Assembly: GCF_003627095.1 (NCBI RefSeq)
Contig: NZ_CP032627.1
Location: forward strand, 744,001 to 808,000
Direction: 5' to 3'
DNA from: Lactococcus allomyrinae
GTDB taxonomy: Bacteria > Bacillota > Bacilli > Lactobacillales > Streptococcaceae
DNA: 64,000 nucleotides
Shown here: in pieces, positions 3-57,293 of the stretch
Position numbering within the stretch: the stretch's first letter is position 1
Layout of the letters: each line of letters starts with the position of its first letter
Translations under genes and position numbers: made by a program
The notes under the pieces: model-generated
Told to the model about the DNA's origin: nothing
What the model saw: the letters and a program-made list of their open reading frames with translations, nothing else
Database searches by the model: none

Positions 3-545
3 GACTTCCCTTTAGAAATGATGGATGCCAATGAATTTGTGGATGAATATTTGGCACTGCTCGGTCAGAAATTGGAGCATCAGCCTAAAGAAACATGGAT
101 TATTTTGATTAATCCAGCAAGTTTTTTAATGACAGAAAAGATACAAGACTTGCTAGAGGGTCTGTCAGTGCTGACAGAAAAAACGGAACTTGTCCATACG
201 TTTGTCATTAGCCAGCAAACGCTTGAACTAGTGTATTTTCCAAATGATGTGCCGAGTACGATTGTTTTGACAGATGATGTTTATCAAATGCCAGATTTTG
301 ACACTTTTAGAAAAAGTATTGAAAATCATTATCCGATAAGTTTGAAAATGTCAGATGAAGCGCTCTGTCAAAATTTTTATGAAATCGTCTCAAGCATTGG
401 TAGCAAGGCAAAAGTCGCTGGAAAATCTTATCAAAATATGATATTATTAAAGGTGATAAATGAGATTTTAGGTATTGAAAGTGCATCATTTTCTATCAAT
501 TTTGATGAACTTTCTGAGCTAGAACGCACTTATCTTAGTTCTTGA
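3..545 (+). CDS. csn2: Csn2, type II-A CRISPR adaptation protein (3' part only)
   Basis: The reading frame is open from the window edge, so the N-terminus lies outside; about 180 C-terminal residues are visible. Csn2 forms a DNA-end-binding ring that helps Cas1-Cas2-Cas9 acquire spacers. The hydrophobic strand WIILINPASFL followed by a helix resembles the C-terminal core of short Csn2, and about 80 further residues follow it, as expected for the long Csn2 variant paired with CRISPR1-type repeats. The gene ends 67 bp before the first repeat, the normal csn2-leader-array order. It contains one CTGTCAG-TG-CTGACAG palindrome (162-177), read as Leu-Ser-Val-Leu-Thr-Glu. Family assignment rests mainly on context and the weak core similarity. 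Confidence 0.75.
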   Translation, partial: DFPLEMMDANEFVDEYLALLGQKLEHQPKETWIILINPASFLMTEKIQDLLEGLSVLTEKTELVHTFVISQQTLELVYFPNDVPSTIVLTDDVYQMPDFDTFRKSIENHYPISLKMSDEALCQNFYEIVSSIGSKAKVAGKSYQNMILLKVINEILGIESASFSINFDELSELERTYLSS

Positions 546-612
546 GGATTGACGAATTTTCAAGAATGTTTGGAAATCGTAGGAGCAAAAACCAAAAAGT
601 TTTTAATTTGAG
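546..612 (+). promoter_or_regulatory. CRISPR leader with ATTTGAG leader-anchor
   Basis: This is the 67-bp AT-rich stretch between csn2 and the first repeat. It ends in ATTTGAG (606-612) directly against the repeat. That heptamer is the leader-anchoring sequence known for S. thermophilus CRISPR1 spacer integration, so new spacers should be added here and the array is transcribed rightward. Confidence 0.8.
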
Positions 613-3357
613 GTTTTTGTACTCTCAACATTTTCCTATCAGTAAAACTATTTGAGGAGGACAACCAATGAAACTTTTGTTTTTGTACTCTCAACATTTT
701 CCTATCAGTAAAACTGAAGATGATGATGGTAATGCAGCAAGTGGGTTTTTGTACTCTCAACATTTTCCTATCAGTAAAACTGGCAGGGCTTGCTGTTTTA
801 GCTTGGCTTTGTTTTTGTACTCTCAACATTTTCCTATCAGTAAAACTGAAAAGTAATATAATCAGACAACTAATCTGTTTTTGTACTCTCAACATTTTCC
901 TATCAGTAAAACAAAGTATACAACCATGTCACCTTCGCTATTGTTTTTGTACTCTCAACATTTTCCTATCAGTAAAACATGCCATTATTGTTCTCCTTAT
1001 TTATAGTATGTTTTTGTACTCTCAACATTTTCCTATCAGTAAAACAGATACATAAGAAGACCAGTCACGGCTCTGGTTTTTGTACTCTCAACATTTTCCT
1101 ATCAGTAAAACTCGGCTATGAAATGGGGCGGGTTACATTATGTTTTTGTACTCTCAACATTTTCCTATCAGTAAAACAAATCCATGCACCGATGACAGTT
1201 GTTGTTCGTTTTTGTACTCTCAACATTTTCCTATCAGTAAAACAGGAAATACAAAAATATCTGAGTGAACTTAGTTTTTGTACTCTCAACATTTTCCTAT
1301 CAGTAAAACGCAAATAATCTGTCCGCTCATGGCGTTTTGGTTTTTGTACTCTCAACATTTTCCTATCAGTAAAACAAAACTCTTTTAGCAGCTTTCTCAG
1401 CTTGTGTTTTTGTACTCTCAACATTTTCCTATCAGTAAAACAAATCTGCCGCTGCTCCTATGGATGCCTTGGTTTTTGTACTCTCAACATTTTCCTATCA
1501 GTAAAACTCGGAAAAGGTGGGGGATTGTCTCAAGCCAGTTTTTGTACTCTCAACATTTTCCTATCAGTAAAACTTATGGTTAATAACAAGCATTACGTTT
1601 TTTGTTTTTGTACTCTCAACATTTTCCTATCAGTAAAACGTGACCCCTGTGTAGATATTCCCATCTAGTGTTTTTGTACTCTCAACATTTTCCTATCAGT
1701 AAAACATGATAATGAATTTCTTGACCCTGATTATGGTTTTTGTACTCTCAACATTTTCCTATCAGTAAAACTTATATCCATCCACCATTTCAGAGAATGC
1801 CGTTTTTGTACTCTCAACATTTTCCTATCAGTAAAACGTGGCTTTTCTGTTAAGTCCGCAAACAATGGTTTTTGTACTCTCAACATTTTCCTATCAGTAA
1901 AACTCAAAATGTACTGCGTAGAACAAAAGCAGAGTTTTTGTACTCTCAACATTTTCCTATCAGTAAAACAGAATTGGCTTTAACCAAATTCATGGTCTGG
2001 TTTTTGTACTCTCAACATTTTCCTATCAGTAAAACCTGATGCCACCAATTCATATAAATGGAGCAGTTTTTGTACTCTCAACATTTTCCTATCAGTAAAA
2101 CCTTATCATGGAAATACTATCATCGACGTAGAGTTTTTGTACTCTCAACATTTTCCTATCAGTAAAACCAGCGGGAACAAAGGAGTAGCCGCAGGACTGT
2201 TTTTGTACTCTCAACATTTTCCTATCAGTAAAACCTATACCAGCGGTAAAACATTAGTAAGTCCGTTTTTGTACTCTCAACATTTTCCTATCAGTAAAAC
2301 GTACTATTCCAAGAAGATACACAGGCTACTGTTTTTGTACTCTCAACATTTTCCTATCAGTAAAACGCTGAAGCGTTGTTATCTCGTGGTTTGCCCGTTT
2401 TTGTACTCTCAACATTTTCCTATCAGTAAAACACGACTTAATCAAAGCTGTTTCTAGTTTAGGTTTTTGTACTCTCAACATTTTCCTATCAGTAAAACAC
2501 AATATTGATATAGTATCAGGGGGGAGCAGTTTTTGTACTCTCAACATTTTCCTATCAGTAAAACCATCTGGGAGCTTGACGGAATTGAAGAAGTGTTTTT
2601 GTACTCTCAACATTTTCCTATCAGTAAAACATTTGACCGAGCGAGAGCTTGAAAACATCAGTTTTTGTACTCTCAACATTTTCCTATCAGTAAAACAGTT
2701 TTTTTAATCATGATAATTTTCTCCTTGTTTTTGTACTCTCAACATTTTCCTATCAGTAAAACGATAGTAACTCATGAGCATACCCCGCGATAGTTTTTGT
2801 ACTCTCAACATTTTCCTATCAGTAAAACTTTAACTGAGCTGTACCATTCCATACCTGAGTTTTTGTACTCTCAACATTTTCCTATCAGTAAAACTATTTA
2901 AAAGGATTGATCTTCTTAGTGTTAGTTTTTGTACTCTCAACATTTTCCTATCAGTAAAACCGTGAAATGCTGAGAATTATCATTGAAGCTGTTTTTGTAC
3001 TCTCAACATTTTCCTATCAGTAAAACTTAATCAACATTATAAAATAAGCTCCTCCCGTTTTTGTACTCTCAACATTTTCCTATCAGTAAAACTCTGATAC
3101 CATTTAAAATATATAAAGCCAAGTTTTTGTACTCTCAACATTTTCCTATCAGTAAAACCGTACGATATAAGGGCTACATGTGCTTGGTGTTTTTGTACTC
3201 TCAACATTTTCCTATCAGTAAAACTTCTGATGAAGTTTTTGTATAACCAGAATTGTTTTTGTACTCTCAACATTTTCCTATCAGTAAAACCTATCATTTT
3301 GATAAGATTTACTGTGCTTTGGTTTTTGTACTCTCAACATCTTCCTATCAAAGATTT
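613..3357 (+). CRISPR. Type II-A CRISPR array, 42 repeats and 41 spacers
   Basis: The 36-bp repeat begins GTTTTTGTACTCTCAACA and ends TATCAGTAAAAC. Forty-one copies (starts 613, 679, 745, 811, 877, 943, 1010 ... 3255) look identical. The last copy (3322) has a T-to-C change and loses its match after position 29, the usual decay at the trailer end. The period is 66 bp, giving 30-bp spacers, except three 31-bp spacers just before the repeats at 1010, 2133 and 3322. All spacers look unique by eye. Spacer 1 carries a Shine-Dalgarno and an ATG, consistent with origin from a phage or plasmid gene start. The first 16 bases of the repeat equal the S. thermophilus CRISPR1 repeat. Cas9, cas1, cas2 and tracrRNA are not in the window. 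Confidence 0.98.
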
Positions 3358-3371
3358 GGACATATATCTTC

Positions 3372-55622: not shown

Positions 55623-55640
55623 CTGTCAGTATACTGACAG
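55623..55640. repeat. 18-bp palindrome between leuC and leuD
   Basis: CTGTCAGTATACTGACAG, perfect; an extra half-site pair TGCTGACAAGTCTGTCAG lies at about 55546-55563. Confidence 0.85.
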
Positions 55641-55692
55641 AAATTTTTGTTCCTAATACTGTTTAACTTTTAAAGATGAGTCAGTATAATTT

Positions 55693-57081
55693 TTAGAATT
55701 GGTCAGTAACTAAATGTCTTACATCAACGAATTTTCCAGCAATTGCTGCTGCTGCTGCCATCGCTGGGCTACATAGATGAGTGCGCGCATTATGTCCTTG
55801 GCGTCCCTCAAAATTACGGTTGCTCGTAGAGGCGCAATGGACGTACTCAGGAATTTGGTCAGGATTCATACCAAGGCAAGCCGAGCAACCAGGTTCACGC
55901 CATTCAAAACCGGCATCTATAAAAATTTTATCCAGACCTTCTGCTTCTGCGGCAGTTTTTACAGGACGGCTGCCAGGAACAACAATTGCTGTCAATCCGT
56001 CAGCAACGTGTTTTCCTTTGACAAACTTGGCAGCTTCTTGTAAATCACCAAGTCTAGCATTCGTACAACTTCCGATAAATACATAGCCTAATTCAATATC
56101 AGAGGCGACTTGCCCTGGCTTTAAATCCATATAATTATAGGCGCGTTCGTAATTGATATTATCTTTAATCTCTGGGAAAGTTTCCCCAAATTCTAGCCCC
56201 ATTCCTGGATTTGTTCCCCAAGTTACCATGGGTTTCAGTTGACTCACATCAAGTGTCAAAACTTTGTCGTAAATGGCATCAGGGTCACTGACAAGATTTT
56301 TCCAGTTACTGACAGCTTTGTCAAAGTCTTTTGGAGCATGGTCCCGTCCTTTGACATAATCATAAGTTTTTTCATCAGGGTTCATCAGACCGATTTTTGC
56401 ACCAAATTCGATAGACATATTACAAATTGTCATTCGCTCTTCCATGGTTAAATCATCAATCGCTTCACCAGTATATTCAACAGCGTAGCCCACACCTGCA
56501 TCAACTCCATATTTCGCAATCAAAGCGAGAATGAAGTCTTTACTATAGACCCCTTTTTGTGGATGACCTATAAACTCGATTTTCATTCGCTTAGGTTTGA
56601 CTTGCCAAAGCGTTTGAGTCGCAAGCACGTGTTCTACTTCACTTGTCCCTATCCCAAAAGCAATGGCACCAAAGGCTCCATTTGTCGCGGTATGACTGTC
56701 GCCACAAACAATCGTTTTTCCTGGTTGTGTACGCCCTGACTCTGGAGCAACCATATGGACAATTCCTTGTCCCTTGCCACCATGTGTTTCCGCAGGAACA
56801 CCAAATTCTTTGACATTTTTAGTAAAAGTATCAATCTGCTTTTTGGAAATCAAATCTTGAATATTAAAAATATCTTTTGTTGGTACATTATGGTCAAGGG
56901 TTCCATAAGTCAAATCAACACGGCGCACGCGACGTCCTGCATCCCGCAGACCTTGGAAAGCCTGTGGACTCGTTACTTCATGAATCACATGAAGGTCAAT
57001 ATAAAGTAGTTGAGGCTCACCTTCATTTCCCGCCACGATATGTTGTTCCCAAAGCTTGTCAAATATTGTTTTTGCTGTCAT
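55693..57081 (-). CDS. leuC: 3-isopropylmalate dehydratase large subunit
   Basis: The product has 462 aa, an aconitase family enzyme with a 4Fe-4S cluster bound by Cys in IGSCTNARL and GCSACLGMN. It isomerises isopropylmalate. The start at 57081 follows AAGGAGAGAG. The 212-bp gap after leuB holds one imperfect palindrome (57216-57230) and a TATAAT that might be an internal promoter. Confidence 0.97.
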
Positions 57082-57293
57082 TTCTCTCTCCTTATACCAG
57101 CTCATCTTTATTTCTACCCAGTAGGATAGCAGTGTTAGATGAACTGCAATTATACTACCTTGCGCTTGTGCAACAGTATTAAATCAAAAATTATTCCGTC
57201 AGTATATTTTCTTCCCTGTCAGTACTGACAAAGTACTGCAAATCAAAATTTGTGATTATAATCTATTTGAATGACTTTTATTGCTCACATAAA

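Follow-up and report, generated by a model that had tools for sequence, protein, structure and literature searches.

A 64-kb window of a Lactococcus chromosome (G000:C1:744001-808000, from a genome of 2.76 Mb called here the source genome) contains many copies of a palindromic dyad that occurs in two forms, CTGTCAG-N2-CTGACAG (16 bp) and CTGTCAG-N4-CTGACAG (18 bp). We have found that the dyads, together with their solitary half-sites, recur at distances of whole helical turns, and that congeners use variants ("dialects") of the same dyad, partly at corresponding positions. With a probability that we set at about one half, the dyads are chromosome-wide binding sites of one putative dimeric, cooperative and sequence-specific protein of drifting specificity, with YTGWCAG-N2-CTGWCAR as the general site. 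More tentatively, they may form a helically phased dyad code read by a putative nucleoid protein, whose specificity would have switched between species with many sites following in place, through protein-site co-evolution.

A genome-wide palindrome family

The 16-bp form was present in the window in 9 exact copies, and in 17 when up to two mismatches were allowed (shuffle means of 0.00 and 0.13, respectively); the 18-bp form gave 6 exact copies and 12 at up to two mismatches (0.00 and 0.17). An 18-bp palindrome with reversed arms at 7422-7439 (CTGACAGAATTCTGTCAG), just 3' of a 688-aa open reading frame (ORF), was excluded, leaving 11 copies of the longer form. The sequence-only reading, which had reported about 28 copies far above chance, was therefore right when degenerate copies are included (17 + 11), the exact ones numbering 15. 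The whole genome contained 203 exact copies of the 16-bp form and 135 of the 18-bp form, against none for the reversed-pattern control of each. This confirmed a genome-wide, non-random palindrome family, HIP1-like in abundance.

Context, frame and half-site analyses were done on a 464-kb sample, composed of the window and 20 further stretches of the source genome, in which a simple gene caller found 371 genes (coding fraction of 0.74, so that some real genes were probably missed). The 20 stretches were picked with the match list in view and the sample is hence enriched in sites, with 0.22 copies of the 16-bp core (TGTCAGNNCTGACA) per kb (n = 102) compared to 0.127 per kb genome-wide (349 in 2.76 Mb). 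Arms separated by 0, 1, 5 or 6 bp were absent from the sample, and a single copy had a 3-bp spacer.

Dyads and half-sites are helically phased

The half-site CTGACA was itself enriched, occurring alone 535 times in the 464-kb sample. Its density with the palindromes masked was 1.16/kb, compared to 0.52/kb across a set of eight other Lactococcus loci that included some of dialect species, and its ratio to the base-composition expectation was 4.45 in the source genome and 0.8-0.9 in two motif-free congeners (G003 and G004). The distances between half-sites of the same orientation peaked at 20-21, 30-31, 41-42, 51, 60-61 and 71-72 bp, and onward to about 123 bp. The inferred dyad centers showed a period of 10.3 bp with a power of 96.8 (411 pairs). 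None of 1,000 control sets, in which each center was moved by up to 15 bp, reached this value, the highest power obtained being 11.7.

The period was observed both in genic pairs (power of 38.7, 160 pairs), where a codon period was also present (22.4 at 3.0 bp), and in intergenic pairs (29.8, 94 pairs), where the 3.0-bp power was 1.1. This argued against a coding cause. Proteins seated on the same side of the helix and touching one another would give whole-turn spacing both inside and outside genes, and a phasing of 10.3 bp is more readily explained by a bound protein than by repair or RNA. The phasing recurred in G011 (47.3, 167 pairs) and in G007 (11.1, 68 pairs), with none of 1,000 jittered sets reaching it in either genome.

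Exact dyads lying close together were collected from the whole G005 genome (18-44 bp between centers; 58 matches, 50 of them listed). Among the matches listed, and with arrays collapsed (n = 37), 13 pairs were spaced by 30-33 bp, 19 by 37-42 bp, one by 35 bp and four by 21-27 bp; this clustering was reached by none of 2,000 random sets and had a best period of 9.65 bp. By the same test, the 13 close pairs of the other four genomes were not significant (512 of 2,000 random sets). G005 also carries tandem arrays between genes (L280:9669-10097, L280:14230-14546 and L281:9570-9676), with about 10, 8 and 2.6 units; each unit measures 41-42 bp and holds one 16-bp dyad. The L281 array lies just 5' of an ORF start. 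No obvious DNA-binding regulator was found among 10 proteins inspected beside these arrays, and the few dense half-site clusters of the samples, whose genes are unannotated, gave no lead to a regulator gene.

Related species use dialects of the same dyad

We have counted the core TGTCAGNNCTGACA in 18 Lactococcus genomes. The source genome held 349 copies, and high numbers were also found in G011 (376), G005 (705) and Lactococcus sp. dk101 (G013, 494), with 71 in L. fujiensis (G002). Seven genomes (G001, which is L. cremoris, G006, G007, G009, G012, G015 and G016) had 1-20 copies and six had none. The best named relative of the source genome by MurT was L. cremoris (83%); for G011 the figure was 94%. 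The 18-bp form was more restricted (178 copies in the source genome, 183 in G011 and 0-2 in each of the other sixteen).

Other palindromes took the place of the core in some species. L. nasutitermitis (G009) had 301 copies of TTGACAGNNCTGTCAA and L. taiwanensis (G016) had 353 of ACTGAC-N6-GTCAGT, the latter being also present in G007 (88), G001 (84) and G012 (32). The profiles read from the center outward were aCTGACAG in the source genome, tCTGTCAAAA in L. nasutitermitis and tCTGTCAGTAA in L. taiwanensis. They share one dyad in one register and differ by a symmetric exchange of A and T at a single position (CTGACA or CTGTCA arms). Seven of the 18 genomes (G003, G004, G006, G008, G010, G014 and G017) had 0-3 copies of each form, and samples of G003 and G004 (100 kb each) and of G010 (60 kb) yielded no enriched palindrome.

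Outside Lactococcus, the core reached 440 copies in one incomplete genome of another genus of the family (G045), and did not exceed one per genome in a large genus, presumably Streptococcus. Among 295 Lactobacillales genomes, in which the source genome was the only Lactococcus, it alone had more than four copies of TGWCAGNNCTGWCA. A phage origin was considered as well. The exact pattern occurred in at least 120 viral stretches; 118 of the 120 loci listed (L146-L265) held a single TGWCAGNNCTGWCA dyad and two held two, so that a motif-rich phage was not seen among them. None of six exact motif strings was found in the literature searched, nor was any title on the topic present among the matches listed.

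Some further repeats were noticed during these comparisons. One in Streptococcus acidominimus (L032) was rejected as a further dialect, since its copies share a longer core, as in an ordinary interspersed repeat outside this palindrome family; it lies at seven places, five with the core CAGTCTATTCCTAGACTG and two with CAGTCTCTCCCCAGACTG, including two pairs 57-58 bp apart. L. insecticola (L017) and L. hodotermopsidis (L018) have TACATA-N8-TATGTA three times per 21-kb locus. The palindrome AAAGCTGTCATTAATGACAGCTTT is found at two distinct places of L. fujiensis (L007 and L093, overlapping loci) and may represent a further dialect or a short repeat.

Dialects meet at conserved positions

Two dyads were scored as coincident when, in an alignment, one lay within 12 bp of the other species' dyad; expectations (in brackets below) came from shifted controls. 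Of 25 aligned source-genome dyads, 10 coincided with a dyad of the L. nasutitermitis type (0.51), the share being 7 of 18 for genic dyads and 3 of 7 for those between genes. Coincidence was likewise above expectation toward L. taiwanensis (3/17, 0.18), G007 (2/15, 0.02), G013 (6/12, 0.10), G005 (11/20, 0.28; 10/20 with a second script) and G011 (25/27, 0.24). Comparisons from other starting genomes gave 4/25 for L. nasutitermitis to L. taiwanensis (0.25), 3/14 for L. taiwanensis to G007 (0.01), 10/27 for G005 to L. nasutitermitis (0.34), and 1/8 and 2/27 for G013 to L. nasutitermitis (0.08) and to L. taiwanensis (0.20). Motif-free samples (G003, G004, G010, L005, L008, L009 and L014) gave 0 of 48 and the motif-poor G012 gave 0 of 14, a given source-genome dyad entering several of these counts, while some coincidences were also obtained in L. 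insecticola (2/7) and L. fujiensis (1/8, overlapping pieces).

Six of the 10 coincidences with L. nasutitermitis were dyad-on-dyad in the exact base register, as in gatD (GGTTCTGTCAGCGCTGACAGACTT versus GGTTTTGACAGTTCTGTCAAACTT). Conserved positions with one changed base fit a binder of drifted specificity and retained sites. In alignments with G011, the arms of intergenic dyads were more conserved than their flanks (148/156 versus 386/456 bases, P = 0.0007), the spacer bases being conserved at 31 of 44 intergenic and 17 of 20 genic positions.

Genic and intergenic copies

We have tallied context and frame in the 464 kb for copies whose outer bases are C/T and G/A. Of 101 copies of the 16-bp form, 70 were genic, 30 intergenic and one partial. 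The genic ones were read as CTG-TCA in 55 cases and in the next frame in 15; the frame bearing TGA was never used. The 18-bp form was intergenic in 41 cases and genic in two (Fisher P = 1e-13 compared to the 16-bp form). The window tallies of the sequence-only reading were reproduced: 13 of 17 copies of the 16-bp form were genic, 12 of these in the CTG-TCA frame, and all 11 copies of the 18-bp form were intergenic. These figures include two copies (27029 and 41651) scored as genic from ORF coordinates, the gene caller giving 11 genic copies with 10 in frame; nine of the 18-bp copies were intergenic by the gene caller, the one at 13874 by alignment context and the one at 22335 by ORF coordinates.

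A TGA stop is not sufficient by itself to explain why the 18-bp form keeps out of genes, since the stop blocks one frame of three and leaves two open. The expected frame bias beyond the window was found in the 464 kb and in G011 (25:1 for CTG-TCA to the next frame), but it was not general: G005 showed it less strongly (19:9) and G013 not at all (8:9). This gradation makes protein tolerance more likely than a peptide signal, and tolerance is what the frame preference looks like. No L. taiwanensis count was drawn from the frame and repeat tallies, because its loci overlap there, as do those of L. fujiensis.

When genic copies were aligned with motif-free or motif-poor congeners, 27 of 37 alignments were free of gaps (4/7 in G003, 6/7 in G004, 4/6 in G010, 6/8 in G012 and 7/9 in G007) and 10 were gapped, some source-genome copies being represented in the alignments of several congeners. 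Most copies hence appear to be substitutions rather than insertions, which speaks against the suggestion of a miniature mobile palindrome.

A T run, defined as at least four T within 11 nt of the copy, accompanied 27 of 41 intergenic copies of the 18-bp form and 12 of 30 of the 16-bp form, compared to 23.5% of random intergenic places; runs on both sides were found for 11 and 7 copies, respectively, and at 1.9% of random places. The difference between the two forms was not significant (P = 0.053). The predicted RNA hairpin was stronger for the 18-bp form (-8.5 kcal/mol) than for the 16-bp form (-5.8 kcal/mol). Certain intergenic copies adjoin T runs as terminators do and may double as terminators, as the sequence-only reading had suggested, but 14 of the 41 copies of the 18-bp form have none. 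Our guess is that selection favors the 18-bp variant at sites with an additional terminator role, and that it avoids genes for this reason.

Sites are missing from probable mobile DNA

About 120 kb of the source chromosome (177.6-297.9 kb) lacked any 16-bp core, and three samples between 190 and 290 kb (L103-L105, 60 kb) contained no site. Among ten genes inspected there, the recognizable ones included those for RecT, IS605- and IS110-type transposases, a C5 methylase and a replication-relaxation protein. RecT, the transposases and the replication-relaxation protein suggest mobile DNA, probably an integrated element or phage. Plasmid samples (20 of the 54.9 kb of C2 and all of C3, 28 kb in total) were also free of sites. 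Absence from this island and from the plasmid samples indicates that the sites belong to resident DNA. The small plasmid C3 (L102) carries a Bsp6I-type restriction-modification pair, 97-98% identical to Lactococcus and Enterococcus plasmids.

Copies in the window

Exact genic copies of the 16-bp form in the CTG-TCA frame lie at 162..177 (encoding LSVLTE), in nadE (14316..14331), in gatD (19191..19206, with TTTTGACAGTTCTGTCAAA at the matching position of L. nasutitermitis), in murT (20539..20554, where L. nasutitermitis and L. taiwanensis have other dialects at the matching position), in the acetolactate decarboxylase gene (21943..21958) and in truB (42179..42194). Degenerate ones in the same frame are found at 6477..6492, 11080..11095, 21142..21157 (murT), 28535..28550 and 41651..41666 (truB, with the nasutitermitis dialect at the matching position), each with one mismatch, and at 27029..27044, with two mismatches in a 396-aa ORF (26420-27610). 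A copy with one mismatch in a TPP-enzyme gene (51217..51232) uses the next frame and encodes VSAD. The intergenic copies are those at 41295..41310, 44951..44966 (terminator-like, with an A run 5' and a T run 3'), 45593..45608 and 57216..57231 (one mismatch).

The 18-bp copies are all intergenic. Exact ones are located at 18610..18627 (followed by a T run, terminator-like), 29774..29791 (immediately 5' of an ORF start), 33567..33584, 40196..40213 (followed by a T run), 49894..49911 and 55623..55640. Copies with one mismatch lie at 13874..13891 and 22394..22411, the latter 59 bp from the copy at 22335..22352, which has two mismatches and separates the acetolactate decarboxylase and lepA ORFs; two more with two mismatches are at 7545..7562 and 11506..11523. 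A nasutitermitis-type dyad (TTGACAGAACTGTCAA), of which the source genome has just three exact copies, occupies positions 49996-50011, some 100 bp away from the 18-bp copy at 49894.

A putative dimeric protein as reader of the dyads

The mechanism that we propose is a protein that would bind YTGWCAG-N2-CTGWCAR as a dimer across the whole chromosome. Dimers bound to the same side of the helix would contact each other, as the whole-turn spacing suggests: side by side at about 20-21 bp, which fits the minimum center distance of about 18-21 bp, and across small loops or by wrapping at 30-31, 41, 51 bp and more. Such contacts may organize or bridge the nucleoid. Changed recognition residues would shift the preferred base, and the sites would then follow. 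The frame preference would reflect what proteins tolerate, Leu-Ser-x-Leu-Thr or Val-Ser-Thr-Asp, and the 18-bp form, with its stronger RNA hairpin, is perhaps kept where a site doubles as a terminator.

Several results weigh against this proposal. The phasing was modest in G013 (reached by 8 of 1,000 jittered sets) and not significant in samples of L. nasutitermitis (62 and 121 of 1,000), L. taiwanensis (51) and G005 (174). A cognate protein was not found among the candidates looked at (PF01037, a second ParB and the proteins beside the G005 arrays). The use of both 2- and 4-bp spacers is awkward for a single rigid dimer, and exact dyads of the source genome, at about one per 8 kb, are sparse for a nucleoid protein. 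Four of the 10 coincidences with L. nasutitermitis were not dyad-on-dyad, and all three intergenic ones fell in gapped alignments, one of them aligning dyad to dyad. The arms of genic dyads were not significantly more conserved than their flanks against G011 (119/120 versus 342/360, P = 0.055). Finally, a dyad is also present in the corresponding murT stretch of L. insecticola and of a metagenome-assembled genome locus; since this site recurs in several genomes, peptides that tolerate such sites may contribute to the coincident positions. The coincidences could thus be partly due to tolerant peptides, and may reflect independent gain at tolerant places rather than retained sites.

The alternatives were weighed against the same data. 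The least improbable, which we still regard as unlikely, is a HIP1-like process in which a methyltransferase and biased repair create and maintain the palindromes and a change of enzyme alters the dialect. It would suit a motif found in high numbers inside genes as well as between them, with a patchy distribution over related species and with alternates in some of these, as in cyanobacteria, but the 12 specified bases of the 14- to 18-bp dyad exceed the usual methylase site, the sites often hold their position across dialects, and such a model leaves no place for the helical phasing of sites and half-sites. Selection by DNA uptake, with competent cells favoring dyad-bearing DNA so that dyads accumulate and dialects arise as in Neisseriaceae, is slightly less likely. 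The dialects, the absence of sites from the mobile island and plasmid samples, the copies with T runs and the in-frame copies in core genes would all agree with it; however, known uptake sequences are short and non-palindromic, whereas the unit here is a dyad with phased spacing, and no Gram-positive bacterium is known to take up DNA with sequence specificity. We give no greater credit to the idea that a single transcription factor uses the dyads as operators of a very large regulon. The palindromic, dimer-type nature of the sites, their helical phasing and the location of some copies just 5' of ORF starts are compatible with operators, but 70 of 101 copies of the 16-bp form in the sample lie within genes, and there are hundreds of sites per genome.

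The remaining possibilities seem more remote. Intrinsic terminators spread by recombination would explain the excess of T runs near intergenic copies, and at most account for the 18-bp form; the genic majority of the 16-bp form, the phasing inside genes, the 18-bp copies devoid of a T run and the non-significant T-run difference between the forms make this improbable for the family. A mobile palindromic element, such as a repetitive extragenic palindrome (REP) or a miniature inverted-repeat transposable element (MITE), is very improbable: copy number and the G005 tandem arrays would be in its favor, but the profiles hold little beyond the dyad and gaps are lacking in most genic alignments. Least credible are terminus-domain or partition sites of the matS or Noc type. 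The motif is palindromic, and the window, with a change in the sign of the GC skew at about 44-46 kb and with parB about half a chromosome away, probably covers the replication terminus and holds 9 exact 16-bp copies against 4.7 predicted from the genome mean. The 203 exact copies are nevertheless split evenly, with 100 in the first 1.34 Mb (terminus included) and 103 in the remainder, which does not sustain the terminus system that had been suggested. A Noc-like second ParB was rejected too. Each of the 18 Lactococcus genomes gave one strong ParB match, with no second one in the motif-rich G000, G009, G011, G013 and G016; second, weak matches were found only in G001, G003, G005, G007 and G012, and were not in step with the motif. 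Lrp/AsnC was likewise rejected as the binder, its domain PF01037 (AsnC_trans_reg) being absent from all 18 genomes, with a control positive in 11 of 14.

Comparison with known systems

Lrp/AsnC wrapping sites are palindromes at helical multiples. The Lactococcus dyads resemble them in this arrangement, but PF01037 was absent from the genomes searched. Noc and ParB sites are 16-bp palindromes read by dimers. Few mutations suffice to switch Noc/ParB specificity (PMC7383237). Lactococcus differs in having hundreds of sites, and no additional protein of the ParB family tracks the motif there. Unlike matS, the copies are not confined to the terminus region, and unlike REP and MITE sequences they are mostly not insertions. 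For the hairpin followed by a T run that marks an intrinsic terminator, the candidates are the 27 of 41 (18-bp) and 12 of 30 (16-bp) intergenic copies with a T run nearby.

Neisseriaceae uptake sequences are not dyads and are not known to show helical phasing. The Lactococcus palindrome shares genome-wide species dialects with them (PMC3630211), but differs from a non-palindromic oligomer in being a strongly over-represented dyad whose half-sites are enriched too.

Highly iterated palindromes have, to our knowledge, long been known in cyanobacteria, without agreement on their function, and HIP1 sites are reportedly conserved by position (Xu, Lawrence and Durand, 2018). Helical phasing is not a known feature of HIP1 or of uptake-sequence dialects. 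HIP1 and its alternates track cognate methyltransferases, and HIP1 is patchy between relatives and replaced by another palindrome in some cyanobacteria (PMC4390886); the words Lactococcus, Streptococcus, Firmicutes and nucleoid are absent from the text of that paper. Like HIP1, the Lactococcus dyad is an over-abundant palindrome in and between genes, of patchy occurrence and with another palindrome in some relatives. Unlike HIP1, which is 8 bp long, GC-rich and tied to methyltransferases, it is 16-18 bp long, AT-containing and phased at 10.3 bp, with dialects that differ by one symmetric base; it is neither GCGATCGC nor another GC-rich palindrome. We regard the Lactococcus dyads as a variant of the highly iterated palindrome kind and not as a member of HIP1. 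They offer a second, separate case of such palindromes, in a readily cultured and manipulated genus in which natural dialect switches occur at matched positions. Capture of the cognate protein would make the function of such repeats directly testable and, if our proposal is true, Lactococcus would provide a natural system for specificity change in a DNA-binding protein with hundreds of targets.

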